Source: Cupriavidus sp. D39
Lineage (GTDB): Bacteria; Pseudomonadota; Gammaproteobacteria; Burkholderiales; Burkholderiaceae
Direction: 5' to 3'
NCBI RefSeq assembly: GCF_026627925.1
Contig: NZ_JAPNLE010000009.1
Location: 1,426,001 to 1,490,000 of the forward strand
DNA: 64,000 bases
Shown here one piece after another: positions 11,025 through 62,167 of the stretch. The notes beneath the pieces were generated by a model. That model had not been told where the DNA came from and did not search any database. It saw nothing but the letters and a program-made list of their open reading frames with translations. Both the position numbers and the translations under genes were made by a program. How positions within the stretch are numbered: position 1 is the first letter of the stretch; every line of letters starts with the position of its first letter.

Positions 11025-11521
11025 TCAGCCCTCCAGCTTGGTGTCCGCCACCAGCACGCCATCGGCGTCGGCATAGACCCAGTTGCCCGGCCGCACCACG
11101 GCGCCGGGCATCTGCACGGTGACCTCGCGCTCGCCCACATTGCGCTTCTGGCTCTTCTGCGGATGCAGGGCCAGGGCGCGCAGGCCGATATCGCACACCG
11201 CAAGCTCCCCGCTGTCACGCACGCAGCCATTGACGATGATGCCGACCCAGCCGTTCTTCTCGGCCAGCACGCCAAGGTTGCCCCCACCAGCGCGCAGCGC
11301 AGCGAGCCGCCGCCATCGACCACCAGCACGCGGCCGTTGCCGGGCGACTCGACCGCCTCGCGCACCAGCGAGTTATCCTCGAACACTTTCAGCGTGGCCG
11401 CCGGGCCGGAGAACGCGGCGCGCTTGCCGAACTGCTGGAATACCGGCGACAGCACGCGCAGCGAGCCGTCGGCCAGGCGTGCCTCATTGGCGTCGCACAG
11501 GTCAGTGGTAGCAAAGCTCAT
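11025..11521 (-). pseudogene. rraA: RraA-like protein, frameshifted
   Basis: The N-terminal half ([19 protein letters not shown] to [11 protein letters not shown]) and the C-terminal half ([18 protein letters not shown] to the end) of an RraA-family protein lie in different frames. The break falls in a run of five C at 11281-11285; a sixth would restore [15 protein letters not shown] and a 165-residue protein, the normal length. RraA binds and inhibits RNase E, and related proteins are HMG/oxaloacetate aldolases. The missing base may be a sequencing error. Confidence 0.85.
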
Positions 11522-11592
11522 GAAGGACTCCCGAATCAGGAAAGTGGAAATTGGAAATTGAAGGCTGCATGCGGAACCATGGGGCCTAGGGA

Positions 11593-11624
11593 CCGCCCGG
11601 ATCGCGCTAGCGCGATCCGGGCGG
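11593..11624. repeat. Perfect 32-nt palindrome
   Basis: The 16-nt arm CCGCCCGGATCGCGCT is followed immediately by its reverse complement, between the MFS transporter stop and the rraA start. It could form a long hairpin ending transporter transcription, but no T run follows on either strand. Confidence 0.75.
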
Positions 11625-11633
11625 GTGCCGGCG

Positions 11634-12898
11634 TCAGCCGGCGGCCGCCCGCTTGCCCGCCACCTCGCGGCGGGAGCGGTTGCCATTGCCCACGGTGACG
11701 GCGGTGAAGATCGCCAGCATCTGGAAGGCGCCGATCATGAAGAAGACCCAGCTCGGCCAATGCGCATCCATCAGCATGCCGAAGAACAGCGGCCCGCTGG
11801 CCAGGCCGATATCCAGGCCGGAGTAGACCACGCCATAAACCCGGCCCGTGGCGCCAGCGGGGCTGCCGCACGCACCAGCAGGTCGCGCGAAGGCCCGGCC
11901 GTGCCCGCACCGAAGCCGATCACGCCCATCAGCACCGGCACCATCACGGCCGGCAGCACGCCCAGCCCCACCACGATGGCGACCAAGCCGGACAGCGTGA
12001 AGCTCATCGCGATCAGGCGGTCGTGGTTGCTGGTGCGTCCCGCGGCAAAGCCGCCCACGATCATGCCGCCCGCGCTGCACAGCATGTAGACGGTGTACGA
12101 CGCCGTGGCGAGCGTCAGCGGCATGCCGTAGAGCTGGGTCAGCGCGGTCGGCGCGAAGCTCTGGATGCCGGAGAACGAAAAGGTGGTGACGAGGAAGAAG
12201 GCCCAGCAGATCCACACTTGCGGCAGCTTGAGGAACGCCAGCATGCTGCCGCCCGCCTTGGGTGCAGCGCTGGCCGGCCTGGGCGCCGCACCGGCGGCGG
12301 CGCGGGGATCCAGCACATGGCGAAAGGCCAGCAGCACGGCCAGCACGCCAAAGGCCACCGCCGAGGCACAGGCAAGCGCGGTGCGCCAACTGCCGAGCTC
12401 GGCAATGGTCACCAGGAAGATCGGCGCCGCAGCCCAGCCGAGGTTGCCCGAGATGCCATGCACGGAGAACGCATGGCCCAGCCGCGGCTGGGAAACATGC
12501 TTGTTGAGCAAGGTGAAATCGGCGGGATGGAACACCCCGTTGCCGATCCCGGCCACGCCCGCGCCAAGCAGCAGCATCGCGTAGCTCGGGCTGATGGACA
12601 GCAGCAAGGCCGCCGCGCCCAGCAGCCCGAGGCCGCCAAACAGCACCGGCTTTGCGCCAAAGCGGTCCACCACGAAGCCTGACGCGGTCTGCACCACGGC
12701 CGACACGGCAAAGAACACCGTCATCAGCAAACCCAGCTCGGCATAGCTCAGGCCGAACTCGGCCTTGATCCACGGGAAGAGAGGCGCCAGGAGCAGGTGA
12801 AAGAAGTGGGAAACGCCGTGGGCCAGCCCGACCAGACCGATGACCTGGGCGTCGTGGCGCAGCGGATTGCGAACGGGATCGAGGGTGGCAGCAGTCAT
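11634..12898 (-). pseudogene. MFS transporter, frameshifted
   Basis: A major-facilitator permease with about 12 membrane segments. The frame from 12898 (MTAATLDPVRNPLRHD) runs to LLVRAAAP, after which the matching sequence (GATGRVYGVVYSGLDIG to GKRAAAG) continues in another frame. The break coincides with GGGG at 11859-11862; one more base restores a 421-residue protein of normal length. The first half (FHPADFTLLNKHVS, HGISGNLGWA) resembles fosmidomycin-resistance/nitrate-type MFS carriers. The substrate is unknown; a sequencing error is possible. Confidence 0.82.
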
Positions 12899-12985
12899 TG
12901 GGCGGCTATCGGGCTGGGCTTGGCATGGCGCGCCGGCCATGCTGCCAGGCACAAGAAGCGCGCTGCGAATACCGCATCATAGAGT

Positions 12986-13009
12986 AAAAGCACCCCTGGC
13001 AGGGGTGCT
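12986..13009 (-). terminator. Rho-independent terminator after the LytTR regulator
   Basis: On the minus strand the AGCACCCCT stem pairs with AGGGGTGCT around a 3-nt loop, followed by TTTTA. It sits just past the response-regulator stop. Confidence 0.8.
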
Positions 13010-13016
13010 CTGCGCG

Positions 13017-13847
13017 CTACATCTGCTTGAACAGATAGGCGTACTGGCGTGCCACCGGCAAGGTTTCCGAGCGATTGCGCAGCTTGAGCGCGAGCCGCCC
13101 CAGCGACTGGTTCACGGCGCTGGCCACGCAGTCGATGTTGACCACCGTGCCGCGATGGATCTGCCAGAAGCGCTCGGGGTCGAGTTGCTGCGACAGCTCG
13201 CGCAGGCTGGTGCGGATCAGCGCTTCGCCGCTGGCGGAAACCACGTTGACATACTTGTCCGTCGCCTCCAGGTAGATCACCTCGTCCACCGGAATGATGC
13301 GGACCTCCTGGCCGACCAGTGCCTTGATAAAGCGCAAGTAGCCATGTTGCGGCGCGCCCGCCGCCTGTTGCGCGGGCCCGCCGCCGCCCGGCTCCAGCGT
13401 CTCGAGGCGCGCCAGCAATTGCGCCAGGCGATCGGTATCGATGGCGGCGCCGCCCTCCTCGCTGGCCTGCGCCTGGGCCGCCAGCCTCGCCTTGAGGCGG
13501 TGCACGGTGGCCTCCAGCCGCTCGGGCTGCACCGGCTTGAGCACGTAGTCGACCGCCTCGCGCTCGAAGGCTTCCAGCGCGAACTGGTCATATGCCGTGA
13601 CGAACACCACCAGCGGCGGCGGATCGAACGCCATGAGCTCGCGCGCCACGTCCATGCCGCTCATGCCAGGCATGCGGATATCGAGAAACGCTACCTGGGG
13701 CTCGTGCTGGCGGGCCGCCTCCAGCGCGGACACGCCGTCATGCACCACGGCGACGATCTGCGCTTCGGGCCAGAGGCTGGACAATTCGGCATGCAAGGCG
13801 CGCGCGAGCAGCGGCTCGTCGTCGGCAATCAACAGGGTCGGGGCCAT
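13017..13847 (-). CDS. LytTR-family response regulator
   Basis: A 276-residue two-component regulator. The receiver domain has the acidic pair at residues 9-10, phospho-acceptor Asp56 in FLDIRMPGMSG, and the conserved Thr and Lys (VTAY, LKPV). A C-terminal LytTR DNA-binding domain (about 165-270) has EVIYLEATDKYVNV and FWQIHRGTVVNI. It follows the histidine kinase gene by about 70 nt and forms the second half of an AlgR/LytR-type pair. The target genes are not apparent from the neighbours. Confidence 0.93.
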   Translation of the reverse strand: MAPTLLIADDEPLLARALHAELSSLWPEAQIVAVVHDGVSALEAARQHEPQVAFLDIRMPGMSGMDVARELMAFDPPPLVVFVTAYDQFALEAFEREAVDYVLKPVQPERLEATVHRLKARLAAQAQASEEGGAAIDTDRLAQLLARLETLEPGGGGPAQQAAGAPQHGYLRFIKALVGQEVRIIPVDEVIYLEATDKYVNVVSASGEALIRTSLRELSQQLDPERFWQIHRGTVVNIDCVASAVNQSLGRLALKLRNRSETLPVARQYAYLFKQM

Positions 13848-13920
13848 GGAAACGGGAGTAAGGGGCGGATCGGTCGAAGCAGTCCAAGCGGCGGTCTAAG
13901 CGCCTAAGCGGCGAGGCGCC

Positions 13921-15111
13921 TCAAGAATGGGAAATGCCTTGCGTGGCGGCGCTCACAGGGGTGATTGCGCGCGCGCCTGCGGCCTTGGCCGCGGGCACCG
14001 GCAGCGGTGCGTGGGCTGCGACAGGCGCCGCCGTGCGCACAACCGGCAACGTCAGCCGGACGATCACGCCGCGCGGCGTGTTTTCTTCCATCTGCATGCT
14101 GGCCGCCGCCCCGAAAATCCGCGCCAGCCGCTCGCGCACATGGGTCAGCCCGAGGCCGGAGCCCTTGGTCACGGCATGCCCGAAACCCACCCCGGTATCG
14201 GTGATCACCACCTGCACGGCGCTGTCGCCCTGCGCCCGGGCCGACAGCACGATCTTGCCGCCACGCATGCACGGCTCGATGCCGTGGCTGACCGCGTTCT
14301 CCACCAGCGGCTGGATCAGCATGGGCGGGATCTCCACCTCCGCCAGCTCGGGCGGGAGCTCGATCTCATAGGCCAGGCGCGTGCCGAAGCGCAGCGCCTG
14401 GATGTCCAGGTAGCTGCGCAGCAGCTCGAACTCCTGGCGCAGCGTGCATTGCTCGGCGCGCGTGTGGGACAGCGACATGCGCAGGAAGCCGATCAGCCGC
14501 TGCAGCAGGCGCCTTGCGGCCTGCTGGTCGGTGGCAATCAGGCAATCCAGGTTGGCCAGGGAGTTGAACAGGAAATGCGGCTCGATCTGCGCCTGCAGGG
14601 CCATCAGTTGCGCGCGCACCAGCTGCTTCTCGGCTTCTTCGCGCTGCAGCGCATCGAGCGCGGCCTGCCGCTCGAGATGCGCGAGCTTCTCCCGTGACCA
14701 GTAGAAGTAAATCATGCTGGCCGACGCAAGCATGCCCACTACCAGGCACATGCGCAGCATATCGGTAGCTTCCTCGAAGGACTTGGCCGGCTCGTTCAGG
14801 ACCACGCGCGTGGTCCAGCTGCCCATGATCACGCCCAGCGGCACGGCCACTGCGGTCAGGCACAGGAAAGGCCAGCGCCGCGGCCTGTCGTTCCACCAGA
14901 TCAGCACGCGGGCAATGTCGATCAGCAGCCAGATCGACAGGCCGATCAGCTGGCTGTAGACGAAGTTGTGCCACAGCGAGCCGCCGGTGCGGAAACCGTA
15001 GTTCAGGCTGACGGCGATGATGGTGTTCGCGCACAGCACGAACACCAGGTCGCGCGCGAGGATCGAGATCCGGGAGGGAATGGCGGCAGGACAGCGATCC
15101 AGCGATTTCAT
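13921..15111 (-). CDS. LytS/YehU-type sensor histidine kinase
   Basis: A 396-residue membrane kinase with four hydrophobic N-terminal segments (about residues 20-135) and a short coiled linker. A His_kinase domain follows with the phospho-acceptor in EPHFLFNSLANLD (His179). The ATPase part has LVENAVSHGI and ITDTGVGFG. The C-terminal 40 residues are Ala/Pro-rich and probably disordered. It is the partner of the adjacent LytTR regulator. No extracellular sensor domain is visible, so the signal may be membrane-derived. Confidence 0.92.
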   Translation of the reverse strand: MKSLDRCPAAIPSRISILARDLVFVLCANTIIAVSLNYGFRTGGSLWHNFVYSQLIGLSIWLLIDIARVLIWWNDRPRRWPFLCLTAVAVPLGVIMGSWTTRVVLNEPAKSFEEATDMLRMCLVVGMLASASMIYFYWSREKLAHLERQAALDALQREEAEKQLVRAQLMALQAQIEPHFLFNSLANLDCLIATDQQAARRLLQRLIGFLRMSLSHTRAEQCTLRQEFELLRSYLDIQALRFGTRLAYEIELPPELAEVEIPPMLIQPLVENAVSHGIEPCMRGGKIVLSARAQGDSAVQVVITDTGVGFGHAVTKGSGLGLTHVRERLARIFGAAASMQMEENTPRGVIVRLTLPVVRTAAPVAAHAPLPVPAAKAAGARAITPVSAATQGISHS

Positions 15112-15154
15112 AGGGGCAAGGTCGGGGACAACTGATCGTTATTGTAGGGGCCGT

Positions 15155-15580
15155 TCACGGGCGCTGCCGTCCTTTGCCCGGCTTATGCGCATCTTGTGCC
15201 TCATTTTCGTGGGCGGTTTCGTCCGTGATGCGGCCATGCAAAGCGGCCCACCACCGCCCCGACAGCACATAGCGAGGAAAGGTGATCCATTGCTCGGCCA
15301 GGATGCGGCGGACAATATCGAGCGGGCCATCGAACGGCTCGGGCCGTACCGCTTCGAGCCGGTGCCCGCGTCCTTGCAGCATCATCGACAAGCCCATGCA
15401 TATCATGCCCAGCCCGATTGCCTGAGCGGACAGCGAGAGCACGCCATAGACGAGCAGCACATTGCCGGCCATGAACATCGGCACCGCGACAATGTGCAGC
15501 AACAGGCTGAGAGGGTGATTGTGATTGCGGGCGTAGCCTTGCCATTGCCAGCGCAGCAGCCCTTGGGGGCGTGCGCTCAT
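15155..15580 (-). CDS. DUF962/Mpo1-like membrane protein
   Basis: A 141-residue protein with two hydrophobic hairpins and the DUF962 histidine pattern: HNHPLSLLLH near the N-terminus and LQGRGHRLE in the middle. This family includes yeast Mpo1, an iron-dependent 2-hydroxy fatty acid dioxygenase. EQWITFPRYVLSGRWW is highly typical of beta-proteobacterial members. The start at 15580 overlaps the upstream small membrane gene by ATGA, so they are cotranscribed. Confidence 0.75.
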   Translation of the reverse strand: MSARPQGLLRWQWQGYARNHNHPLSLLLHIVAVPMFMAGNVLLVYGVLSLSAQAIGLGMICMGLSMMLQGRGHRLEAVRPEPFDGPLDIVRRILAEQWITFPRYVLSGRWWAALHGRITDETAHENEAQDAHKPGKGRQRP

Positions 15581-15783
15581 GGCTTCTGCCCTCCCTGGCT
15601 GGCGCGGCGCCAGGCCAGGCGGCGCACGAGCACGATGGCGCCCAGGGCGATCAGCAGCACGGGCCAGCCCTCGCGTAGCAGATAGGCCGGCAGGATGCCG
15701 CCATTCTGCGCGAGGAGCACCGCGCCCAGTGCAATCAGGATGATCGGGGCGATCAGCCCCTTGCCGCCACGGCCTTGCTTCAT
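15577..15783 (-). CDS. small LiaF-TM/DUF5668-like membrane protein
   Basis: A 68-residue protein with two membrane segments: IAPIILIALGAVLLAQN and WPVLLIALGAIVLVRR. This matches the duplicated hairpin of the LiaI/LiaF-TM family, which is linked to envelope stress sensing. GAGGAG precedes ATG at 15783. Its stop overlaps the start of the DUF962 protein gene. Function unknown. Confidence 0.7.
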   Translation of the reverse strand: MKQGRGGKGLIAPIILIALGAVLLAQNGGILPAYLLREGWPVLLIALGAIVLVRRLAWRRASQGGQKP

Positions 15784-16012
15784 CGCGCTCTCCTCGCGTG
15801 CGGACCCGCGCACCGTCGATATTGCAGTGCATCAAGCCATGTGGCGGCAGCAATCTATGCCACCACGGACAGTGGTGACTTTACGCGGACACCGGCCGGG
15901 ACGAAAGTGGCGTGCGACGAATGGAAAGCGGATGGCGCGAAAGGCGAGGATGCGGCGCGATCGGCACCGCGGCCTCTGCGGGCCAATGAGACCCATGAGG
16001 CCCAGGAAGCCG

Positions 16013-16959
16013 TCAGGCCTCGACCACCTGCCCGCCCGCTGGCTCGGACAGCGCGCTGCTGACCGTGTCGCGCGAGAGATGCGGCGCGAACATGTTGATG
16101 AAGGCATGCGCGTAGCCGCGCAGGTAGGCGCCGCGGCGCACGGCCACGCTAGTGGTGTTGGGCTCGAACAGGTGGTCGGCCGCGATCCGCACCAGCCCGG
16201 CGTCCTTGCGTTCGTCGTAGGCCATCGAGGCGATGATGCCCACGCCCAGTTCCAGCTCGGCGTACGTCTTGATGACGTCCGCGTCCATGGCGGTCAGCAC
16301 GATTTCCGGCTGCAGCCCGGCGGCGGCGAAGGCGCCATCGATCTTGCGGCGCCCGGTGAAGCCGGCGTCGTAGGTAATGATCGGGAAGCCGGCGATGTCT
16401 TCCAGCGTCGGCTCCGGTAGGAGCGTCAGGGGTGCTCGGGCGAGACCACCAGCACGTGGCGCCAGGTGTAGGCCTCGAACGAGGTCAGCCCGGCCTCGCT
16501 GGCCACCGCCTCGGTCGCGATGCCGATATCGGCCTGGCCGCACAGCACCAGCTCCACGATATGCGCGGGCGAGGCTTCCTGTAACGCCAGCGTCACATGG
16601 GGGTAGGCGCGGCGGAAGCTCTGCACCACCTTGGGCAAGGCATAGCGGGCCTGGGTGTGGGTGGTGGCCACCGTGAGGCGGCCGGTATGGCGCCCGGCGA
16701 ATTCGTCGCCCGCCTGGCGCAGGTTCTCGGCCTCGAGCAGCAGGCGTTCGACGATGCGCACGATTTCACGCCCGGGCTCGGTCAGGCCGGTCAGGCGCTT
16801 GCCGTAACGCTCGAAGATCTCGACGCCAAGCTCCTCCTCCAGCTCGCGGATCTGGCGCGACACGCCGGGCTGCGAGGTGTAGAGCGCATTGGCCACCTCG
16901 GTCAGGTTGAATTGGCGGCGCACCGCCTCGCGGATGGAACGTAGTTGCTGGAAGTTCAT
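16013..16959 (-). pseudogene. cysB: CysB-like LysR regulator, frameshifted
   Basis: The N-terminal half ([40 protein letters not shown]) is the CysB helix-turn-helix, and the C-terminal half (TLEDIAGFPIITYDAGFTG, TAMDADVIKTYAELELGVG) is the CysB effector domain. They are separated by a stop after VVSPEHP. GGGG at 16429-16432 is one base short; restoring it gives EHPLTLLPEPTLEDIAG and a 315-residue protein, the normal length. CysB activates sulfate and sulfonate assimilation in response to N-acetylserine. It is translationally coupled to cysA (4-nt overlap). Confidence 0.9.
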
Positions 16960-19015: not shown

Positions 19016-19016
19016 T

Positions 19017-28460: not shown

Positions 28461-28535
28461 CTGCTGCCGGCCATAGTGACGCCAGCTTCCGCGCACCGCA
28501 CGCGGATTCCAAGACAGATGATCCACGGAGACACC

Positions 28536-36539: not shown

Positions 36540-37840
36540 CTACCGCTGCGGCATGTCCGCGGCCGAGTAACCCAGGCTGACCGTGGCGTCCTGCGGAATC
36601 GGCGGCATGCCCGCATTCCACGCTAGCCACGCCTCGCGCATCGCCGCCAGCCGCTGGGGCTCGCGTTTTGCCAGGTTGGCGCGCTCGCGCTCATCGCGGC
36701 TGAGATCGAACAGGTACTCGTGTCCGTCCACCTGCAGGTACTTCCAGTCGCCGTCGCGCAGCGCGCGCTGGTCGCGGTGGTTCATGCGCCAGTGCAGCGG
36801 ACGGTGGAAGCGGTGCGCCGCATCGCGCAGCAACGGCATCAGCGACACGCCGTCGAGCGGGTAGCCGGCATCGGCCTGCACGCCCGCCGCGTCCAGCATC
36901 GTGGCCGACCAGTCCATCGTCATGCAGTGCTGCGCGCTGGCGCCGCCCGGCGCGATCACCGCGGGCCAGTGCGCGATCCACGGCACGCGGATGCCCCCTC
37001 GGTCAGGTCCATCTTGCCGCCCACCAGCGGCCAGTTGTCCGAGAAGCGCTCGCCGCCGTTGTCACTGGTAAAGACGATCAGCGTGTTGTCGAGCTGGCCG
37101 AGCTGGCGCAGCGCCCGCACCAGCCAGCCGATGCCCTCATCCATGTGGCCGATCATGCGCCGGTAAGTGTGGATGTTGCCGCCGTCGAGATGGAAGAGGT
37201 TGTTGCTGACCTGCGGCGCCAGCGCGGCGTCGTCGCGGGTTTCCCACGGCCAGTGCGGCGCGGTGTAGTGCAGGCTCAGGAAAAACGGTGCGCCCTGCGC
37301 GCTCATGCGCGTCACGTAATCCACCGCGCGCCGCGACAGCAGATCGGTCAGGTAGCCGGCCTCCTGGTGCGCCGCGTCGTTGTGCCACAGGTCGTGGCGG
37401 CCGCTGGAATCGCAGTGCGTGAAGTAATCGACACCGCCCGCCATGGGCCCGAAAAACTCCTGGTAGCCCGACAGCAGCGGCCCGAACGCCGGTGCAAAGC
37501 CCAGGTGCCATTTGCCGATCAGCGCCGTGCGGTAGCCCTGCGCCTGCAGCAGCGAGGGCAAGGTGGGATGCGCCGGCGGCAGGCCCAGCGTGTTGTTGCC
37601 GCGGCTCTTGCTGTTGATCGGCTCCTCCGCCGCGCCGCGCAGCCGGTACTGATAGCGCGCCGTCATCAGCGCAAAGCGCGTGGGAGAGCACACCGGCGAG
37701 TTGGCATAGCCCTGCGTGAGCATCAGGCCGTTGGCGGCCAGGCTGTCGAGCACCGGAGACACCGGCACGCGCCCGCCATAGCAGCCCAGGTCCGCATAGC
37801 CGAGGTCGTCGGCGACGATATAGATCAGGTTCGGTTTCAT
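36540..37840 (-). pseudogene. type I sulfatase, frameshifted
   Basis: NLIYIVADDLGYADLGCYGG starts the protein and supplies metal Asp residues. SPVCSPTRFALMTARY gives the CxPxR motif (Cys51), the formylglycine site of type I sulfatases. The frame is lost after MDLTEG; one extra base in the run of five C at 36994-36998 restores EGGIRVPWIAHWPAV and a 433-residue enzyme. It hydrolyses a sulfate ester. No signal peptide is visible, unlike many sulfatases. The ATG overlaps the stop of the upstream Bug gene (ATGA). Confidence 0.88.
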
Positions 37841-38815
37841 TCGACCTTCATGCCGGTAGCGACGATGAGTTGACGATAACGATCGGACAGTTCCGACAAG
37901 CGCCGCGCGGCGGCCGCGCCCGTGACGCCTTCGGGCTGCAGGTCCAGCGCCTGCATGCGTGCCTGCACATCCGGCCGCGCCAGCGCATCGCCGATGGCAC
38001 GCTCAAGCACGCGCACCACCGGCTCGGGCGTGGCCGCCGGCACCATCGCCACATACAGTACCTCATGCTCCAGGTCCTTCATGCCCAGCTCCGCCACGGT
38101 GGCGATGCCCGGCGCCAGCCGCGAGGCGCTGGCGGCTGGTCACCGCCAGCGCCGTCACCTTGCCCGCCTTGACGAAGGGCAGCATGCTGGGCGTGGCCAG
38201 GAAGCCGCCATCCACCTCGCTGCCCACCACAGCGGTCACCGCCGGCGTGCTGCCCTTGTAAGGCACATGGTTCAGCCTGAGGCCGGTGGCGCGCTGGAAC
38301 TCCTCGATGGCCAGGTGGCCCGGGCTGCCGCTGCCGCCGGAGCTGAAGTTCAAGCGCTTCGCCTTGGCCTGCTTGACCAGGTCCGGCAAGGAGGCGATGC
38401 CCGACGACGGGGACGTGCCTACCAGCAAACCCGAACTGGCCAGGATCATCAAGGGCTTGAGCTCGCCGGGCCGGAACGGCATGGTGCTGTAGATATGCGG
38501 GTTGACGGTAAAGGTGGTATCGATGCCGAACAGCACCGCGTAGCCATCGGCCGGGCTCTTGGCCACCGCGCCCGCGCCCAGGTTACCGCCCGCCCCCGGC
38601 TTGTTCTCGACCACAAAGGCCTGCTTGAGCTCGCCCTGCAGCACCTCGGCCACCGAGCGGGCCAGCAGGTCGGACGGGCCGCCCGGCGGGAACGCGTTGA
38701 CGAAGCGCACCGGCTTGGCCGGATAGCGCTCCTGGGCGTGCGCCGCGAGTCCCGGCGCGCAGAGCAGCAGCGCAAGGGTTGCGGCCCGCAGCGGGGCGGA
38801 AAGGCGATGGAACAT
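37837..38815 (-). pseudogene. Bug/TctC-family solute-binding protein, frameshifted
   Basis: The signal peptide (LALLLCAPGLAAHA) and mature ERYPAKPVRFVNAFPPGGPSD are followed by VVENKPGAGGNLGAGAVAKS. The frame is lost near 38124-38135 and continues as ASRLAPGIATVAELGMKDLE to ATGMKVE. Removing one base gives 325 residues and the family spacing between VTS and VAE. Unlike the other breaks it is not in a C/G run. The stop overlaps the sulfatase start, so the two are one unit and the ligand may be a sulfated organic acid. Confidence 0.87.
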
Positions 38816-39114
38816 GGCGTGGTCTCCGTTGTTATGATGGCGCCGGCTGGCACCAGCTTGCTGGCGCCTACGTGCCGCACAACTGTACGTGCCATGCCAT
38901 CGATTGTTCTAATCAATCATTCCCAGACCCATCGCCAGTCCATCGCGGCTAGCCGGCCACGCCCGGATGGACAGGTTGCACGCGATGTCGCGTGCAACGC
39001 TCCGCTGCAGCCGAAGCGTCGGGCCTGAATCGCAAGTGCCTTGCGCTGCCCAAGCCAGGCACTATCCTTATCGATACAGCCCGTGGCGGGCCTGTTCGAT
39101 GAGCGTCACCCCAC
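38816..39114. other. Divergent promoter region between Bug and pyc
   Basis: About 300 nt with no gene. It holds AT-rich TTCTAATCAATCATTC at about 38904-38919 and should contain promoters for both the Bug-sulfatase unit and the pyruvate carboxylase gene. No exact operator is apparent. Confidence 0.4.
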
Positions 39115-42100
39115 ATGAAACAGATCAAGAGCATCCTGGTAGCCAATCGCGGCGAGATCGCCATCCGCATCATGCGGGCGGCCAGCGAGCTGGGCATTCG
39201 TACCATCGCCATCTACTCGAACGAGGACCGCTTCGCGCTGCATCGCTTCAAGGCGGACGAAAGCTACCTGGTCGGCAAGGCGATGAAGCCCACCCAGGCC
39301 TATCTGTCCGTGCCCGAGATCCTGCGGGTGGCCAAGCATGCGGGGGTCGATGCAATTCACCCCGGCTACGGCTTCCTGAGCGAGAACCCGGACTTTGCCC
39401 AGGCCTGCGCCGCCCAGGGCATCGTCTTCATCGGGCCGGAGCCGGAAGTCATGCGCACGCTGGGCAACAAGATCGCCGCCAGGCAGGCGGCGCAGCGCGC
39501 CGGCGTGCCCGTGATGCCTGCCACGCCTGCACTCACGGGCAGCCTGGACGATGCACTCGCCGCTGCCGAGGCGATCGGCTATCCCGTGATGCTCAAGGCA
39601 AGCTGGGGTGGCGGCGGGCGCGGCATGCGCGTGATCGAGAGCGCGGACGACCTGCGCGCCCAGCTCGACGTGGCACGCCGCGAAGCGCTGACGGCCTTCG
39701 GCAACGACGAGGTGTACCTCGAGAAGCTGGTGCGCCAGGCGCGCCACGTTGAAGTCCAGCTGCTGGGCGACACCCATGGCAACCTCGTCCACCTGTTCGA
39801 GCGCGACTGCTCGATCCAGCGCCGGCACCAGAAGGTGGTGGAGCGCGCGCCGGCGCCCTATCTCGATCCGGCCCAGCGCGAGGCGCTGTGCCAGGCCGCG
39901 CTGCGCCTGGGGCGCGAGGTATCCTACACGCACGCAGGCACCGTCGAGTTCCTGATGGATGTGGAGACCTCGGCGTTCTACTTCATCGAGGTGAATCCCC
40001 GGATCCAGGTGGAGCACACGGTGACGGAGCAAGTGACCGGCATCGACCTGATCAAGGCGCAGATCAAGGTGTCGGAAGGCGCGCGCATCGGCGACGCTGC
40101 GTCCGGCGTGCCGCTGCAGGCCGGCATCGAGGTGCGCGGCCACGCGCTGCAGTGCCGCGTCACCACCGAGGACCCGGAGAACGGCTTCAACCCCGACTAT
40201 GGCCGGCTGACCGCCTACCGCACCGGCGCCGGCTTCGGCATCCGCCTGGATAGCGGCACCGCTTATGCCGGCGCGGTCATCACGCCCTACTACGACTCCT
40301 TGCTGACCAAGGTGACCGCATGGGCGCCAACGGCCGATGAAGCGGCCCAGCGCATGCTCCGTGCCCTGCGCGAGTTCCGTGTGCGCGGCGTCTCGACCAA
40401 CCTGCGCTTTCTGGAGAATGTGGTCTCCCACCCGAAGTTCGCCGCTGGCGACTACACCACCCGCTTCATCGACACCGAAGCCAAGCTGTTCCGCTTCACG
40501 GCGCGCAAGGACACCGCGACCAAGCTGCTGCAGTTCATCGGCGAGACCACCGTGCACGGCAGCCCCGAGATGCGCGGCCGCACCGCGCCGGCCGGCACGT
40601 TCGGGCCGCCGCGCCTGCCGGTGGAGGCCGGTACCCCGCCCGTCCAGGCCGGATTGCGCCCTTGCTCAAGCAGCTTGGCCCGGAAAAGTTCGCGGCGTGG
40701 ATGCGCGAGCAGAAAGCCGTCCTGCTGACCGACACCAGCATGCGCGACGCGCACCAGTCGCTGTTTGCAACCCGCATGCGCACCCGCGACATGGCGCAGA
40801 TCGCGCCGCACTACGCGGCCAAGCTCCCGGGGCTGTTCTCGGTGGAGTGCTGGGGCGGCGCGACCTTCGACGTCGCCATGCGCTTTCTCAAGGAGGATCC
40901 GTGGCAGCGGCTCGAGAAGCTGCGCAGCGCCATGCCGGACATGTTGCTGCAGATGCTGCTGCGCGCGAGCAACGCCGTGGGCTACACCAACTATCCGGAC
41001 AACGTGGTCCGTCATTTCGTGCAGCAGGCCGCGGCCACCGGCATCGACCTGTTCCGGGTCTTCGACTCGCTCAACAGCGTCGACAACATGCGCGTCGCCA
41101 TGGAGGCCGTGCGCGAATCCGGCGCCCTGTGCGAAGCGGCGATCTGCTATACGGGCGACCTGTTCGACGCGTCACGCCGGTACACACTTCCCTACTATCT
41201 CAAGATGGCGAAGGAACTGGAAAGCGCGGGCGCGCACATCATCGCCATCAAGGACATGGCCGGGCTATGCCGGCCGGCAGCGGCGAAAGCGCTGGTCAGC
41301 GCGCTGAAACAGGAGACCGGCCTGCCGATCCACTTCCATACGCACGACACCAGCGGCATTGCCGCCGCCAGCGTGCTCGCCGCGATCGACGCCGGCGTGG
41401 ATGCGGTGGACGGCGCCATCGACGCCCTGAGCGGCCTGACCTCGCAGCCCAACCTGGGTTCGATCGTCAGCGCGCTGCAGGGCACCGAGCGCGCCCCGGC
41501 GGTCTCGCCCGCGGCCATCCAGGAAATCTCCCGCTATTGGGAAGACGTGCGGGCGTACTACACGCCTTTCGAATCCGAGATGCGTGCCGGCACGTCCGAC
41601 GTCTATCTGCACGAAATGCCCGGGGGCCAGTACACCAACCTGCGCGAACAGGCCCGGGCCATGGGCCTGGAGCCACAATGGGCCCGCGTGGCGACGACCT
41701 ATGCCGAGGTCAACCAGCTCTTCGGGGATATCGTCAAGGTCACGCCCACCTCCAAGGTCGTGGGCGACATGGCGCTCTATATGGTGGCCAACAACCTCAG
41801 CGCCGACATGGTGCTGGCGCCGGACAGCAACATCCAGTTCCCCGACTCCGTCGTCTCCCTGTTTCGCGGTGACCTGGGCTTCCCCGAGCAGGGCTTTCCG
41901 CGGGCGCTGCAGGACAAGGTGCTCAATGGCATGGCGCCGCTCACGGCACGCCCCGGCGCCGTCATGCCGCCGGCCGACATGGAAGCCGCGCACGCGGCGG
42001 TACAGGCGCTGCTCGGCCACGCGCCGACGGAGAACGACATCTCCGCCTACCTGATGTACCCAAAGGTGTTCGCCGACTTTGCGCATGCGCGCAAGACTTA

Positions 42101-42563
42101 TGAGGACGTATCGGTGCTGCCCACCCCGGTGTTCTTCTACGGCATGCAGGAAGGCGAGGAAGTCGCCGTCGATATCGCCCAGGGAAAGACGCTGATCGTC
42201 CGCCTGCTGGGCAAGTCCGTGGCGGACGACGACGGGCAGGTAAAGCTGTTCTTCGAGCTCAACGGCCAGCCCAGGCTGGTGCGCGTGGACGCCACCCGGG
42301 ACGGCGGCGGCAAGCGGCGGCGCGCGCCCGCCGAGGAAGGCAATCCCCTGCATGTGCCGGCCCCCATGCCCGGCGCGGTCGCCTCGGTCTGCGTCAAGGC
42401 CGGCGACATCGTCAAGGCAGGCGCCACACTGCTCTCGCTCGAAGCCATGAAGATGGAAATGACCATCCAGGCCGAAGCCGACGGCGTGGTCGAGATGGTC
42501 CATGTCAAGCCGGGAGACCTGGTGGAAGCCAAGGACCTGCTGGTGGCGATGAAGCCGGCTTAG
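39115..42563 (+). pseudogene. pyc: pyruvate carboxylase, single chain, frameshifted
   Basis: Biotin-dependent carboxylation of pyruvate to oxaloacetate. The biotin carboxylase domain (residues 1-450) has ILVANRGEIAIRIMRAASEL, KASWGGGGRGMRVIE and EVNPRIQVEHTVTEQ. The carboxyltransferase domain has LLTDTSMRDAHQSLFATRMRT and VECWGGATFDVAMRF. The C-terminal biotinyl domain has the lysine in LEAMKMEMTI. The first domain stops in frame near 40728, while the second continues in another frame; one more base in CCCC at 40634-40637 fuses them into 1149 residues, the normal pyruvate carboxylase length. Confidence 0.92.
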
Positions 42564-50708: not shown

Positions 50709-50756
50709 GGGAAGTGATCCAGGTAGGGGAACAACGCTGTTATCATAAAATTGAAT

Positions 50757-50789
50757 GGAATCATTTATGAAATACAATAATTTGATTCC
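50757..50789. promoter_or_regulatory. Inverted repeat GGAATCA-N19-TGATTCC in an AT-rich region
   Basis: Perfect 7-nt arms in an AT-rich block between the divergent decarboxylase alpha gene and a LysR gene. Its position and symmetry fit a LysR operator controlling both. Confidence 0.55.
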
Positions 50790-50853
50790 TCCATCAGTAA
50801 TTTGGATAGCCGGGCATCACCGGCCAACCATCAGGATCTCGCACCCCACGCCC

Positions 50854-51782
50854 ATGGACATCAAGCAACTTCGCGCCCTCCTGGCCATCGCCGAGACCGG
50901 CAGCGCCACCAAGGCCGCCGAGCTTCTTCGCATCGTGCAGCCGGCCGTCTCCCGGCATGTACGGCTGCTTGAAGAGGAGTTCGGCGTAGAGCTGTTCGAG
51001 CGCGAACGGCATGGCATGGTCCTGACCGACGCGGGCCGGACCCTGGTTGAGTACGGCCGCCGCGCACTGCGCGAGCTTGACCGGGCCAAGGCGGAGATCC
51101 AGCCGGTGGCTGGGACGATCTCCGGCACGGCGGCGCTCGGCCTGCTCCCCAGCACGTGCGAGCTGCTGGCCGCGGCGCTGGTCGCCACCGTGAAGGACAA
51201 GCACCCGCAACTGGTCATGCGGCTCAACGTGGGCTACGCGGGCAACCTCATGCAATGGCTTGAGTCGGGCGAGGTCGAGATCGCGCTGCTGTACGACATC
51301 AAGGCTTCCCCGGCCTGCAGGTCGAGGCGCTGCTCGACGAACAGCTCTGCCTGATCGGCCTGCCCGGCACCGTGCCCGCGGGCGCCGCGCACACCATCGA
51401 GAGCCTGCGGGACCTGCCGCTGGTGCTGCCCAATGCGCCGCACGGCCTGCGCACGGTGGTCGAGCATGCGTGTGCGGTAGCCGGGGTCTCGCTCACGGTC
51501 GCCGTCGAGACCAACTCCCTGAGCGTGCAGAAATCCCTGGTTGCCAAGGGCTTTGGCTATACGGTCCTGCCCAGCTCGGCGGTCTCCGAAGAACTGGAAA
51601 GAGGCACGTTGGCCGCAGCGCCGATCACCTCTCCCAACCTTTCCCGGCGCATCGTGCTGGCGCATCCGGCCACGCGCCGGATGTCGCCTGCCGCCAGCTT
51701 CGCCTCGGCGGAACTGGTCACGCTGATCAAGCGCCTGGTGCTGGGTGGCGCCTGGCCAGGGGCCACCTGGATTGGCGCGTAG
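50854..51782 (+). pseudogene. LysR-family regulator, frameshifted
   Basis: DIKQLRALLAIAETGSATKAAE and VQPAVSRHVRLLEEEFGVELFER are the HTH part. The frame continues to DIKASP and then degenerates, while the rest (GLQVEALLDEQLCLIGLPG to GGAWPGATWIGA) lies in another frame. One more C in CCCC at 51308-51311 restores SPGLQVEALL and 309 residues, the family length. It is divergent from the decarboxylase/ALDH operon and would regulate it. Confidence 0.85.
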
Positions 51783-55886: not shown

Positions 55887-55953
55887 GGGAAAACGTCCGG
55901 ATCGATTAGACCCGCAAGATATACCACGACTGCATAGTCTCCCCGCGATAAAG

Positions 55954-55970
55954 CATTATTCAGAATAATG
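55954..55970. promoter_or_regulatory. Perfect 17-nt palindrome CATTATTC-A-GAATAATG
   Basis: A single-base-centred palindrome in the 168-nt space between the LysR gene (start 55886) and the Bug gene (start 56055). It contains an ATTAT-N5-ATAAT core, which resembles the T-N11-A LysR box, and is strongly AT-rich in a GC-rich setting. Confidence 0.65.
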
Positions 55971-56054
55971 TCGCTCCCCTACACTCGCCGCACGATCAAG
56001 ACGAACGCCGCCGCCGATAGCCGGGCCAGCGGCAAAAAAGAGGAGAACACACCG

Positions 56055-57047
56055 ATGAAGCGGAAGCTGCTGTTGAATGATGACTGGAAATCCTGCGTGG
56101 CCGCGGCCGTCCTGGGCGCCGCCTTCGCAGGTGGCGCGTTCGCGCAGCAGGGCTACCCCGACAGGACCATCCGTATCATCGTGCCGTTCAGCGCGGGCGG
56201 CAGCTCCGACATGCAGGGCCGCATGCTGGCGGACCGGCTGGGCCGGCTCTACAAGCAATCCGTGGTGGTGGAAAACCGTCCCGGCGCGGGCGGCCATATC
56301 GGCGGCAAGGCGGTGGTGGATGCGCCGACCGACGGCTACACCCTGCTGCTTGGCTCAATCGGCCTGCACGCCACCTACAACACCTACAAGAAGCTCAACT
56401 ACAACCCGGCCACGGACCTGAAGATCGTCACCGTGCTGGCCGAAATGCCGCATGTGGTCGTGGTGAACCCGAAGGTGCCGGCCAACAACCTGAAGCAACT
56501 CGCCGCAGCCGCGCGCCAGCGCCCGGACACGATGACATTCGGCTCCGCGGGCGTGGGGTCGTCGGTCCATATGATGGGCGAGCTCTACAAGCTCAACGCC
56601 GGCGCACCGCTGGTGCACGTGCCGTACAAGGGCAGCGCGGCAGCCATGACCGACCTGCTGGGCGGCCAGATCGACATGATGTTCGAGAATCCGCCGACCA
56701 CGCTGTCATACATCCGCTCGGGCAAGCTCAAGGCGCTGGCCGTCACCGGCAAGACGCGCTCGCCCGCGCTGCCCGACGTGCCGACGGCCGCGGAGTCCGG
56801 CTATCCGGGTTTCGTGGCGACGTCGTGGACCACCGTGGCCGTCAGCGCCAAGGTGCCTGACGCGATCGCCGACAAGCTCAACGCCGATATCCGGCAGATC
56901 GTCGCCACGCCCGAATTCCGCCAGGGCCTGCAGGAGCAAGGCATGACCCCCGTGGCCAACACCCGCGACGCCGCGCAGCGCTTCATCGCGACGGAAAAAG
57001 CGCGCTGGGACCAGGTCATCGCCAAGGGCAAGATCAGCGCGGAATAA
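56055..57047 (+). CDS. Bug/TctC-family solute-binding protein
   Basis: A 330-residue periplasmic protein. AAVLGAAFAGGAFA is the signal, followed by YPDRTIRIIVPFSAGGSSDMQGRML and VVVENRPGAGGHIGGKAVVDAPTDGYTLLL; PYKGSAAAMTDLLGGQIDMMFEN binds the ligand. The start at 56055 follows AGGAGAAC. It is followed by a propeller enzyme-like gene after 100 nt, so both may handle the same (possibly uronic or carbohydrate-derived) acid. Confidence 0.92.
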   Translation: MKRKLLLNDDWKSCVAAAVLGAAFAGGAFAQQGYPDRTIRIIVPFSAGGSSDMQGRMLADRLGRLYKQSVVVENRPGAGGHIGGKAVVDAPTDGYTLLLGSIGLHATYNTYKKLNYNPATDLKIVTVLAEMPHVVVVNPKVPANNLKQLAAAARQRPDTMTFGSAGVGSSVHMMGELYKLNAGAPLVHVPYKGSAAAMTDLLGGQIDMMFENPPTTLSYIRSGKLKALAVTGKTRSPALPDVPTAAESGYPGFVATSWTTVAVSAKVPDAIADKLNADIRQIVATPEFRQGLQEQGMTPVANTRDAAQRFIATEKARWDQVIAKGKISAE

Positions 57048-57147
57048 CGCGGAACAACGCGAAGTAGCGCGGAACAAAGCGGCGCGATACCAAGGCGGCA
57101 AACCCGCCTCGCGCCAGCATATCCAGTCTCAACGGAAACCCAGCTTC

Positions 57148-58435
57148 ATGCATTCCTCACGCATCATTGCCAGCCCGCTACCCTACCGGCGGCTGGGCGC
57201 CGACGGCCTCCACCACTTCTTTGGCTACTACAACAAGAGCACCTGGGACCGCAGCCAGCGCTACGTGCTAGCGCAGCGCGTGCCGATGGCCGACGCCGAA
57301 CTGGGGCCGGACCTGGTAGCCGAAATCGGCTTCTTCGACCTGCAGGACGGCGACCGCTTTCACCGCGTAGGCCAGACCACCGCCTGGAACTGGCAGATGG
57401 GCGCACAGCTACAGTGGCTCGACGGCGCGCCCCGGCAGGCAGCTCATCTACAACCGCAGGACGGACGACGCATCGGCCTTCTTCCCGCATCTGGGCGCGA
57501 CGGTGCATAACGTGGACACGGGGGAAGACAGGACCCTGCCCATGCCCGTGTATGTGGTCGCGCCGAACAGCGAGTACGGCCTGTGCGTGAACTACCGCCG
57601 CCTGTACATCACGCACCAGACCATCGGCTACAGCGACGCGACGCCGCAACCCGCGCTGCCCAACGCGCCGGCCGACGACGGCATCCACTACATGGACCTG
57701 CGCACCGGCGAGACGCGCCTGGTCCTGAGCTACCAGGACCTGCGCAACTTCCACCCGAAGGCCTCGATGGACAAGGCCATCCACTGGGTCAGCCATATCG
57801 AGATCAACCCGCGCTCGTCGCGCGTGCTGCTGCTGCACCGTTGGACCGAGCGAGTGAAGGACGAGACATGCTTCCTGCACCGGCTCATCACGGCCAATCC
57901 CGATGGCTCCGACCTGCGCCTGCTGGAGTGCTCCGACCATCCGCTGCCGCAACTGGCGGCGGATTTCGATCCCGGCGCGGTCGGCACGTTTGACTACGAG
58001 AAGTCCGAGTACCAGATCTCGCATCCGCTGTGGCAGGACGATGCGCACATCATCGTATGGGGGCCGCATGCCGGCAGCATCCACTACCACCTCTACCACG
58101 ACAGCGAGGGCGGCGGGGTGCAGGTCGTCGGCGACGGCGTGCTGACGGAAAACGGCCACATGACATTCTCGCCGGTGGCGCGCAACTGGCTGCTGAGCGA
58201 CACCTATCCCGATGCCGCCACCAACGAGCGGATCCTCTTTCTCTACGACACGGCGTCTGGCTTGCGCCATGACCTGGGCAGCTTCTACACGGACCCCGGC
58301 CTGAAGAAGGAGAACCGCTGCGACCTGCATCCGCGCTGGAGCCGCGACGGCCGCCACGCCTGCATCGATTCGATCCACGACGGCGAACGGCAGATGTACG
58401 TGATGGACGTCAGCGCGCTCACGGCCAGCGCCTGA
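57148..58435 (+). pseudogene. TolB/oligogalacturonate-lyase-like beta-propeller, frameshifted
   Basis: HHFFGYYNKSTWDRSQRYVLAQR opens the protein, which ends with DLHPRWSRDGRHACIDSIHDG and GERQMYVMDVSAL; repeated Trp/Asp motifs fit a beta-propeller. The pattern resembles oligogalacturonate lyase (PL22), but assignment is tentative. The frame breaks at 57430-57433 (CCCC): removing one C gives APGRQLIYNRRTDDASAFFP and 428 residues. No signal peptide, so it is probably cytoplasmic. It shares an operon with a Bug protein. Confidence 0.75.
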
Positions 58436-58454
58436 AACAAGGCCGCCCTGGCGT

Positions 58455-59225
58455 TCAGCGCGTCGCCACGATGAAGAACCTCGGGAACGGCAGCAGCACG
58501 CTGCCGTCCGCCATCGGCGGATAGGCGCGCGCCACCGCCGCCGTATAGCGCTCCAGGTACGCCGCGCGCTCGGCTTCGTCCAGCGGGTCGAGGAAGGGGC
58601 GCAGGCCGGTGCCCTTGAACCACTCGACAATGGCGGCGGGGCCGCCGGCCAGCGCGTGGTGGTAGGTGGTGTGCCAGACATCGACCGTACTGCAATGCGC
58701 GCGCAGCAGTTCGTAATACCAGCCAGCGCCCTGCAACCCGGTGCGCGCCTGCGAGGCCGCGGCCAGCTTGCCGGCCCACGGGCCATTGGCGGCGACCTCG
58801 CGCATCAGGCGGTGCGCGGGCGTGTCCAGCGTGTCGGGCACCTGGATGGCAAGGCTGCCGCCGGGCGCCAACTTGGCGGCCAGCGCGGGCAGCAGGCGGC
58901 CGTGGTCGGGCAGCCATTGCAGCACGGCATTGGCGAGGATCACATCGTAGGGGCCCGGGTCATACCAGGTTTCGATGCTGCTCACCTCGAACTTCAATGC
59001 CGGCAGCCGCTTGCGCGCGGCTTCGACCATGTCGGCCGAGCTGTCCAGCCCGGTCACGCTCGCGCCGGGAAAGCAGGCGGCCAGCACCTCGGTCGAGTTG
59101 CCCGGGCCGCAGCCGATGTCCACCGCAATGCGCGGCTCGCGTCCCGGCACCGCGGCCAGCAGGTCGCGTACCGGGCGGGTACGCTCGTTCTCGAATTTCA
59201 CGTATTGCTTGGCTGACCAAGTCAT
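58455..59225 (-). CDS. tam: trans-aconitate 2-methyltransferase
   Basis: A 256-residue SAM-dependent methyltransferase. The start MTWSAKQYVKFENERTRPVRDL and the SAM motif VDIGCGPGNSTEVLA are characteristic of Tam, with ANAVLQWLPDH in the middle and LLPFPRFFIVATR at the end. It detoxifies trans-aconitate, an aconitase inhibitor, by monomethylation. It lies 24 nt past a small conserved hypothetical gene on the same strand. Confidence 0.95.
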   Translation of the reverse strand: MTWSAKQYVKFENERTRPVRDLLAAVPGREPRIAVDIGCGPGNSTEVLAACFPGASVTGLDSSADMVEAARKRLPALKFEVSSIETWYDPGPYDVILANAVLQWLPDHGRLLPALAAKLAPGGSLAIQVPDTLDTPAHRLMREVAANGPWAGKLAAASQARTGLQGAGWYYELLRAHCSTVDVWHTTYHHALAGGPAAIVEWFKGTGLRPFLDPLDEAERAAYLERYTAAVARAYPPMADGSVLLPFPRFFIVATR

Positions 59226-59249
59226 TGCTGCTCCTTTGCGGGTTCGGTC

Positions 59250-59510
59250 CTAGTGCTTCGGAAGATCTGGCTTGTTCGGATTCTTCGGCATCGCGGGCTG
59301 CCTGGCCTGTTGCAGCGCGGCCCTGCCCTTGAGGGTCAGCGCGACGATGGCCTGCGCGCGCGGCACGCCGGGCCGGGACGTCATCCCCACCAGGCCGGCC
59401 GTCGTCGCGTCCTCCCACGCGGACAGCCGTGGGCAGGACGTGCGCCATGCTTCCATGGTGTCGGCGAAGGTGCGCGGCGTGGCGTCCAGCCACGCCAGGA
59501 ATTCCAGCAA
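59250..59510 (-). CDS. conserved hypothetical protein
   Basis: An 86-residue protein with LEFLAWLDATPRTFADTMEAWRTSCPRLSAWEDA and a VALTLKGRAAL segment, a pattern I recall from Burkholderiales hypotheticals. The C-terminus is Pro/Lys-rich. It lies directly upstream of tam, so the two probably form one transcript. No function is assigned. Confidence 0.65.
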   Translation of the reverse strand: MLEFLAWLDATPRTFADTMEAWRTSCPRLSAWEDATTAGLVGMTSRPGVPRAQAIVALTLKGRAALQQARQPAMPKNPNKPDLPKH

Positions 59511-59562
59511 ATTGCCGGAGTACGAGGGGGCGGGAAGGTTGGCGTCCCTGCCTTGATCCTAA

Positions 59563-59600
59563 TCCCTTCCCGCTCCCGTTCCCGTTCCCGTCCCCTTTCC
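59563..59600. repeat. low-complexity CCCGTT/CTCCCG tract
   Basis: Tandem hexamers of the type TTCCCG, upstream of the small hypothetical gene. Low-complexity slippage tract; no gene crosses it. Confidence 0.6.
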
Positions 59601-59707
59601 CTGGTCCATGGCCGTGCTCCGTTGATGCCCGAAACATGCCGTCAGGATAGAGCCGAACTGCTATGATTTCCAATGCATATTGAACACGATTTCAATACCC
59701 TTAGAGT

Positions 59708-60660
59708 ATGGCAATGATAGAGCTACGCCGGCTGCGCGCCTTCGTCGTGCTGGCCGAAGAAGGCCACGTCACCCGCGCCGCCGAGCGCCTCGGCATGCAG
59801 CAGCCGCCGCTCACGCGCCTGCTGCGCGGGCTGGAAGAGGAACTGGGCGTTTTGCTGATGCGCCGCCTGCCGCGCGGCGTGCGCCCGACAGAGGCCGGCC
59901 TGGCGTTGCTGGAAGAGGCCCGCGCCGTGCTGGCCCGTGCCGAAGGCGTGGCCGACGTGGTGCGCCGCGCCGCGGCCGGGGAGCAAGGGCGGCTGGCGGT
60001 GGGCTTTACCAGCTCCGCCGCCCTGCACCCCTTGTGCCCGCCGTGCTGCGCCGGTTTCGCGAGAGCGTGCCGGGCGTTGCGGTGACGCTGGAGGAAGCCG
60101 GCACCAGCGAGCTGGTGGACGCGATCCTGCACGAGCGGCTGGACGCCGCCTTCGTACGCTCGCCGGTGGGCAGCACCGCCGGGCTGGTGCTCGATGCCGT
60201 GCTGGAGGAGCCGATGCTGGCGGCGCTGCCGGCAGGGCATCCGCTGGCGGCGCAGGCTGGCGCACTGCCGCTGGCCGCGCTGGCGCGCGAGCCCTTCATC
60301 CTCTACCGCCGCCCCGCCGGGCCCGGCCTGTATGACGCGATCCTGACGGCCTGCCGCGCCGCAGGCTTCAGCCCGCTGGTGGCGCAGGAAGCGCCGCGCC
60401 TGCCGGCCACGCTCAGCCTGGTGGCGGCGGGCCTTGGCGTGTCCGTGGTGCCCGCGTCCATGCACCGCCTGGGTGGCGAGGACATCGTCTATCGCCCGCT
60501 GGGCGAGAGCCCGCCGCTGACCGCGCCCCTGCACCTGGCGCTGCGCCACGGCATGCTGCCGGCGGCCGTGGTCCGCTTTCGCGCAATGGTGCGCGAGATG
60601 GTGGCTGCTGCGGCTGAAGCACCCAATGCACCCAATGCGCCCAACGCACGCGGGACGTGA
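59708..60660 (+). pseudogene. LysR-family regulator, frameshifted
   Basis: The HTH part (IELRRLRAFVVLAEEGHVTRAA, QPPLTRLLRGLEEELGVLLM) and the effector part (AVLRRFRESVPGVAVTLEEAG to NAPNARGT) lie in different frames. One more C in CCCC at 60028-60031 restores HPLVPAVLRRF and 317 residues, normal for LysR. The C-terminus ends with a 9-nt repeat encoding APNAPNAPNA. It lies divergent from the small hypothetical and tam genes. Confidence 0.85.
60619..60645. repeat. 9-nt tandem repeat at the LysR 3' end
   Basis: GCACCCAAT twice and GCGCCCAAC once, giving a repeated Ala-Pro-Asn tail in the LysR frame. Confidence 0.7.
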
Positions 60661-60678
60661 TGCAACAACACTCGCGCC

Positions 60679-61017
60679 ATGATGTCATTCAACCGCAAGA
60701 CAGCCGCGCACGCGGTGAGCCAGATGGATGAAGTGACGCAGCAGAACGCGTCGCTGGTCGAAGAAGCGGCCGCGGCAGCGCAATCGCTGGAAGAACAAGC
60801 CGCCAAGCTGAAGGACACAGTGGCCGTGTTCAGGCTGGGCAACCAGGGCGTGGCAAGCGCGGCGAGTACGGCAAGTGCGGCGAGTGCGGCGGCGCCCCGT
60901 GCCGTGCGGGCCGTGAGCAGGCCCGCGGCATCGTCGCCGCGCTGCGCCGCACCGGTGGCACCGCGTGCCGTTGCGGCTGCGGCGCCGGCCTCGGCATCCG
61001 ACTGGTCGTCCTTCTAA
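60679..61017 (+). pseudogene. orphan C-terminal fragment of a methyl-accepting chemotaxis protein
   Basis: [42 protein letters not shown] is the extreme C-terminal signalling-helix sequence of MCPs, followed by an Ala-rich tail ending in the pentapeptide-like DWSSF. The entire ligand, membrane and HAMP parts are absent; the preceding sequence is the LysR 3' end. It is a remnant of a deleted receptor. Its stop overlaps the glycerate kinase stop on the other strand. Confidence 0.8.
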
Positions 61018-62167
61018 ACGGAACGGCGCGCGGCCGCATAGAGCCGTGCCAGCTGCGCGGCGGCCGCTTCCAGCAGTGCCCCGCCCTGCGCGATCGACCA
61101 GGCCAGCGACGCAGGACCGGCCTGCACCGAGAAGCAGCCGTCGAACGCCTCGCGCAGCAGCGCGCCATCGGCAATCTCCCCGATAGCAAGGTCACCGGCA
61201 CGCCGTGCCGGCGGCCCAGCGCCGCGATCAGCGCCGGGCCCTTGCCAAGCAAGGTCTGGCGATCCGAGCGGCCTTCGCCGGTCAGGATCCAGTCGTACCC
61301 GGCCACCGTCGCCAACCCGGCGGCGTCGAGGATAAAGCTGCCGCCCGGCAGCAATTGCGCGCCAAGCAACCGCAGGGCAAAGCCCAGCCCGCCCGCGGCG
61401 CCCGCGCCCTGCGCTTGCGCTGCATGGCGACCGAGCGCCAGCTCGCAGCGCGCCGCGAACTCCCCCAGCACCTCATCCGCTTGCGCGAGATCCGTCACGC
61501 CCTTTTGCGCGCCAAAGATCATGCTGGCGCCAAGCCGCCCGCACAAAGGGCTGGTGACATCGGTGAGCGCCACCAGGCGCGGCGCTTGCCACCGGCCCGC
61601 ATCAGCGCGTGGGCGCAGGCTGCGGATCGACGCAAGATTGTCGAGCACCGGGTCGATGCGCCCGCCCGCCGCATCGAGGAAATCGAGCGCCAGCTCCGCC
61701 AGCAGGCCGGCGCCGGCATCGTTGGTGGACGAGCCGCCCAGGCCAACCACGATGGTGGCGAAGCCCTGCGCGGCAATCCCGCGTATGGCCTGCCCTACCC
61801 CGCGCGTGGTGCGCGCGCCGGGCGCGGCCATCGCGTCGGGCAGGCCGGCCACCGCCGCCACATCGAAGATCGCGAAGGCGCCAAGCGCCGCGCTCTCGCA
61901 TGCGGCAAACGGCATGCGCACAAGCTGGCCGTTGGCATCCGTCACGTCCACCGCATGCCAGCACCCGCCGCATGCCGCGGCCACCACGGCAGCCGTGCCT
62001 TCGCCGCCATCGGCAATGGGTACCTGCGTCACCCGGGCATCCGGCAGCGCATTGCGGATGCCCTCGGCCATATGCCGGGCCGCCGCCGGCGCATCCAGGC
62101 TGCCTTTGAACGAGTCGGGCGCCAGCAGCACGCGCAGCCCGCGCGCAGGCACGGTCTTCAACGCCAT
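61014..62167 (-). pseudogene. glycerate kinase, frameshifted
   Basis: A GlxK/GarK-type kinase that phosphorylates glycerate. LRVLLAPDSFKGSLDAPAAARHMAEG and VPIADGGEGTAAV are the start, IVVGLGGSSTNDAGAGLL and LTGEGRSDRQTLLGKGP the conserved core. The frame is lost after VTLLSG; one more base in CCCC at 61178-61181 restores LLSGEIADGALLREAFDG and a 384-residue protein ending ARRSV. The start at 62167 (MALKTV) could instead be GTG 62179, overlapping the VOC stop. Confidence 0.9.

Follow-up and report, generated by a model that had tools for sequence, protein, structure and literature searches.

Single-base consensus errors very probably split ten genes in a 64-kb stretch of the Cupriavidus sp. 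D39 assembly

According to the Kastor paper on the error profile of a nanopore assembly (PMC12007338), most deletion errors occur after runs of four to five bases and false frameshifted genes are numerous, with 23.3% of the genes annotated as pseudogenes in one draft. For Acinetobacter baumannii genomes sequenced on the 454 platform, another report (PMC6861863) describes run errors of one to three bases that split genuine open reading frames (ORFs). Here we analysed a stretch of 64,000 bases of Cupriavidus sp. D39 (the window; bases 1426001–1490000 of contig 9, which is 5,336,522 bases long), in which ten genes are each divided between two reading frames, and we consider it close to certain that all ten breaks are one-base errors in the assembly consensus and do not reflect mutations in the bacterium. 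The case is like PMC12007338 in that deletions are concentrated at short runs, cause false frameshifts and are detected by comparing related genomes, and like the 454 genomes (PMC6861863) in that run errors split ORFs; the 454 errors lay mostly in A or T runs, whereas those found here concern C/G runs in an assembly with contigs of up to 5.3 Mb.

The assembly comprises 7,740,597 bases in 11 contigs (completeness 97.84, contamination 1.08). The genus search covered 60 genomes, the genome under study included, and the nearest relatives were G003 (8 contigs), G007 (2 contigs) and G005 (420 contigs), which are largely collinear with the window genome and mostly share 90–95% DNA identity with it over the aligned pieces. 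The split genes are listed below with the number of genomes in which they occupy one frame; these numbers cover only genomes where the two pieces were located next to each other, and derive from sampled loci, not from all 60 genomes.

11028..11521, minus strand: rraA; split near 11281, break in a C run; one frame in 3/3 relatives
11637..12940, minus strand: MFS transporter; split near 11859, break beside a G run; one frame in 3/3
16016..16959, minus strand: CysB-family LysR regulator (cysB); split near 16429, break in a G run; one frame in 19/19
36543..37840, minus strand: sulfatase; split near 36994, break in a C run; one frame in 3/3
37840..38836, minus strand: Bug/TctC-type solute receptor; split near 38130, one base extra, without a C/G run of four; one frame in 13/13
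39115..42560, plus strand: pyruvate carboxylase (pyc); split near 40634, exact site not fixed; one frame in 25/26
50755..51779, plus strand: LysR regulator; split near 51308, break in a C run; one frame in 11/11
57148..58432, plus strand: uncharacterised protein (57430 gene); split near 57430, one base extra in a C run; one frame in 5/5
59708..60600, plus strand: LysR regulator; split near 60028, break at or at most two bases from a C run; one frame in 7/7
61020..62350, minus strand: glycerate kinase; split near 61178, break in a C run; compared with one relative, G005

A sequence-only reading of the window had placed each of these genes in two frames at these positions, and the Pfam scan of the pieces, the relatives and the DNA alignment bore this out. 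The same protein type was recognised on either side of the break in cysB, the sulfatase, pyc and both LysR genes, and also in the MFS gene, where the second side scored under the Pfam cut-off; for rraA, Bug and the glycerate kinase the scan in the right frame covered one side only, and the pieces of the 57430 gene had no Pfam match. The 445-amino-acid glycerate kinase of the relative matched the window in one frame (residues 1–393) and then in another to its end, and the Pfam profile was covered from 1 to 324 of 372 positions here versus 1–371 in G005. The earlier label of the 57430 gene as a propeller did not hold, as even the intact relative (L164:2743-4035, 431 amino acids) matched nothing in Pfam, NCBIfam or the PDB sequences, one PDB row having E = 0.54.

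That reading had proposed comparison with an orthologous genome as a means of telling error from loss, and related genomes of the genus indeed kept both halves in one frame, with a single exception (pyc, in 1 of 26 genomes). For eight genes (rraA, MFS, cysB, sulfatase, Bug, 51308, 57430 and 60028) the pieces were adjacent and in the same frame in every genome counted. Both pieces of rraA, the MFS gene and the sulfatase showed median protein identities of ~95–99% to the near relatives. The Bug pieces had median identities of only ~29–37% in the 13 genomes, so most of these matches are paralogues; the Bug break is directly visible against the near relatives G007 and G005. The pyc break falls within a poorly conserved linker between the carboxylase halves. 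The stretch carrying pyc (39115–42560) has no collinear match of at least 800 bases in G003, G007 or G005, its relatives within the genus share ~70–75% DNA identity, and the exception among the 26 genomes is the fragmented relative G043 (L097), in which the pyc pieces are also in two frames.

DNA alignment fixed the place of nine of the ten breaks, seven of them being one base short relative to the relatives and two (Bug and 57430) carrying one base extra. The claim that eight breaks need a base added and two a base removed therefore stood for the nine placed breaks, while pyc is consistent with it, its frame offset being compatible with either a single missing base or two surplus ones. Likewise, the claim that nine breaks coincide with C/G runs was correct in that nine of the ten coordinates start a run of four or five, but the pyc break could not be placed on its run. 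Of the nine breaks that could be placed, eight abut or fall within a C/G run of four or five, including the ambiguous one at 60028, where the gap falls at the run in the alignment with two relatives and two bases off in that with two more. C/G runs of four or more, together with the positions adjoining them, occupy 2.6% of the window, so that eight of nine would be expected by chance with P = 1.9e-12. The simple picture in which the relatives have each run one base longer failed at most of the ten sites, where they have an interrupted run instead. Beyond the ten, one-base differences from two relatives each were seen at 28461, 46799 and 54256.

Breaks of this kind were not confined to the window. 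A strict test for frame-broken genes, which covers genes with an orthologue in the compared stretches, was applied to 224 kb around the window and to a second region of 220 kb around ribosomal genes. Around the window 15/110 (G003 queries), 14/104 (G007) and 5/37 (G005) orthologues were broken, and in the second region 13/134 (G003) and 12/135 (G007), compared with 1/117, 0/119, 1/159 and 1/162 in the G003–G007 controls for the same regions. The frame-broken share was thus 13–14% around the window and 9–10% in the second region versus 0–0.9% between near relatives, and the cause of the breaks is not local to the window. The strict test detects six of the ten known breaks (rraA, MFS, cysB, Bug, the LysR gene at 51308 and the 57430 gene) and misses the sulfatase, pyc, the LysR gene at 60028 and the glycerate kinase, as well as mutL; within the window it found no break beyond those known among the genes with a compared orthologue, with four of the ten known ones missed.

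With a looser test, 26/123, 26/114 and 9/42 genes were broken here, compared with 5/122 (G003 queried against G007), 6/124 (G007 against G003), 3/33 (G005 against G007) and 5/42 (G005 against G003) in the controls; extra candidates in the window appeared at ~6.9, 28, 30–31, 43–44 and 47 kb, several of them common to relatives or poorly aligned. In-frame stops, counted in the looser test, did not distinguish the genome (11, 7 and 3 here versus 8, 0, 8 and 0 in relative-to-relative controls). When the genome's own ORFs were queried against the relatives, 3/119, 3/111, 5/132 and 6/136 were broken by the strict test and 6/118 and 10/130 by the looser one; some of these cases may be ORFs that extend beyond a break.

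Because the window genome is farther from G003 and G007 than these two are from each other, the rates were also scaled to substitutions. One-base indels in coding sequence (defined as sequence covered by a relative's protein, so that missed genes fall into the non-coding part) numbered 5.7 and 5.9 per 1000 coding substitutions here, versus 2.2, 1.1, 1.3 and 0.6 on the relatives' branches; the branches were counted without outgroup rooting, so that of the window genome includes the stem of G003/G007. One-base deletions at C/G runs within genes numbered 14 and 16 on this branch versus 0, 0, 0 and 1 on those of the relatives, which carry ~2.5–2.8 times fewer coding substitutions.

The broken genes of the second region included those for 30S ribosomal proteins S8 and S3, 50S ribosomal protein L30, PilM, a PBP1A-family protein, DsbD, RecQ, GspD and RpoC (names, rpoC apart, are from NCBIfam matches above cut-off for the intact relative's protein). 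The assembly contains one match to rpoC, in an open frame of 683 amino acids versus 1431 in both relatives, only two partial matches to S8 (rpsH), which together make one gene, and one match to S3 (rpsC), in a frame of 198 amino acids versus 271–272; all three genes are intact in both relatives. A bacterium lacking RpoC, S8 and S3 would not be expected to survive. Since the only matches to them are broken, the breaks must belong to the assembled sequence, with no counterpart in the cell, and real loss is not credible.

The frequency of shortening also depended on run length. The comparison kept C/G runs that had the same length or were cleanly shorter by one base, and set aside those with substitutions or other gaps. 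In it, four-base runs were one shorter here in 7/366 (G003), 6/346 (G007) and 3/97 (G005) cases (controls 4/466 and 3/465), five-base runs in 10/51, 9/47 and 1/11 cases, respectively (controls 2/74 and 1/68), and six-base runs in 2/4 and 2/4, with none available for G005 (controls 0/6 and 0/6). Shortening thus climbed from ~2% for runs of four to ~20% for runs of five. In line with this, among 17 genomes (this one and 16 hand-picked relatives, the nearest and mostly little-fragmented) the assembly had the lowest density of C/G runs of exactly six, with 491 in 7.74 Mb or ~63 per Mb, compared with ~79–155 per Mb in the other 16 and 128–134 in the three nearest. This scarcity is what run lengths miscounted downwards would leave. 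Runs of at least six were absent from the window, and 292 kb from other parts of the assembly contained 12, versus 23 in 200 kb (G003), 45 in 200 kb (G007) and 8 in 60 kb (G005); the contrast was smaller with 15 named loci of other genera (22 in 317 kb). Aligned to G003, the genome has four six-base runs as assembled plus 12 five-base runs that face a stretch one base longer, giving ~16, while G003 and G007 have 9 and 12 six-base runs when aligned to the window genome and 15 and 20 when aligned to each other. Runs private to the lineage and later shortened fit the run-length comparison only roughly. The second lowest density among the 17 genomes, with 617 six-base runs in 7.8 Mb, was that of G004, which may carry similar errors.

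Taken together, the proposed process would be one in which sequencing and assembly undercount C/G runs by one base, in roughly 2% of four-base runs, 20% of five-base runs and, on small numbers, more often in six-base runs, with fewer extra bases also introduced; a one-base miscount would shift the frame, so that intact genes look split. The source of the errors is most likely an incompletely polished long-read consensus, which we infer from its fit to the long contigs (5.3 Mb) and the excess of deletions. The preference of the sequence-only reading for sequencing or assembly error over real decay is supported by the intact relatives, the wide excess of broken genes, the broken essential genes, the run-length dependence and the scarcity of six-base runs.

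The same clustering of breaks in runs would be produced by a mismatch-repair-deficient hypermutator with slipping runs, in which the genes are truly broken or phase-variable. In keeping with such a strain, the only MutL_C match falls within an open frame of just 323 amino acids, compared with 732 and 959, the mutL orthologue (L231:7152-9358) is in three frames relative to both near relatives, and the MutS_V match is in a frame of 944 amino acids versus 1053 and 1059 in the relatives. However, the mutL breaks may come from the same error process and are outweighed by those in essential genes (rpoC, rpsH and rpsC, each found once), breaks that a cell would not be expected to survive, and about one gene in 7–11 would have been lost although the pieces of rraA, the MFS gene and the sulfatase stay so similar to their relatives; we therefore regard real frameshifts as very improbable. 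The position of the breaks at C/G runs could also recall programmed ribosomal frameshifting, which would preserve function, as sequence runs can be slippery, but the breaks are not conserved, the relatives being one-framed except for pyc in G043, and unrelated genes are affected in both directions, which leaves this explanation with a practically negligible likelihood. A mixed-strain consensus or a misassembly, to which the 11 contigs, three of them only 2–7 kb long, might point, is extremely unlikely given the contamination value of 1.08 and the run-length dependence and assembly-wide six-base scarcity, which fit miscounted runs better. It is unlikely, too, that some of the miscalls reflect chemically modified bases in C/G-rich sequence, in which case the errors would trace a methylation pattern as well as miscounted runs. 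The relatives have a single base between two short runs at most of the ten sites, and outright loss of that base is conceivable, but shortened private runs account for most of the run-length counts.

Several observations nevertheless weigh against miscounted runs as the whole account. Two of the ten breaks (Bug and 57430) are extra bases, the Bug break lies outside any C/G run of four, and at most of the ten sites close relatives do not share the same run. In PMC12007338, A/T runs were affected about twice as often as C/G runs, whereas C/G runs account for nine of the ten coordinates here, the window having a G+C content of 66%. Among C/G runs of at least seven, both clean ones in G007 (2/2) were one shorter in G003, so long runs vary among relatives as well. 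In two 20-kb regions the strict test gave no contrast (0/15, 1/16, 1/9 and 1/10 versus 1/16, 0/18, 1/14 and 1/14 in the controls). Finally, one-base indels on this branch were denser outside genes (173 and 140 per 100 kb) than inside (22 and 19), and C/G-run deletions alone were also denser there (~50–55 versus 12 per 100 kb), while purely random error would be spread evenly unless long runs are commoner outside genes. Natural indels must contribute to the branch count, and together with more long runs outside genes they would explain the excess there.

Single-base consensus errors thus make this case an ordinary artefact without new biology. If the two sampled regions are typical, about one gene in 7–11 of this assembly would be wrongly scored as broken, ribosomal and RNA polymerase genes included, and any report of lost genes, pseudogenes or absent pathways based on it should be distrusted without the reads. 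One window gene had its best matches among named genomes in Ralstonia, Glaciimonas and Paraburkholderia, all of which belong to the Burkholderiales, and a gene with a gamma-glutamylcyclotransferase (AIG2-like) match adjoins rraA at 10624–11196.

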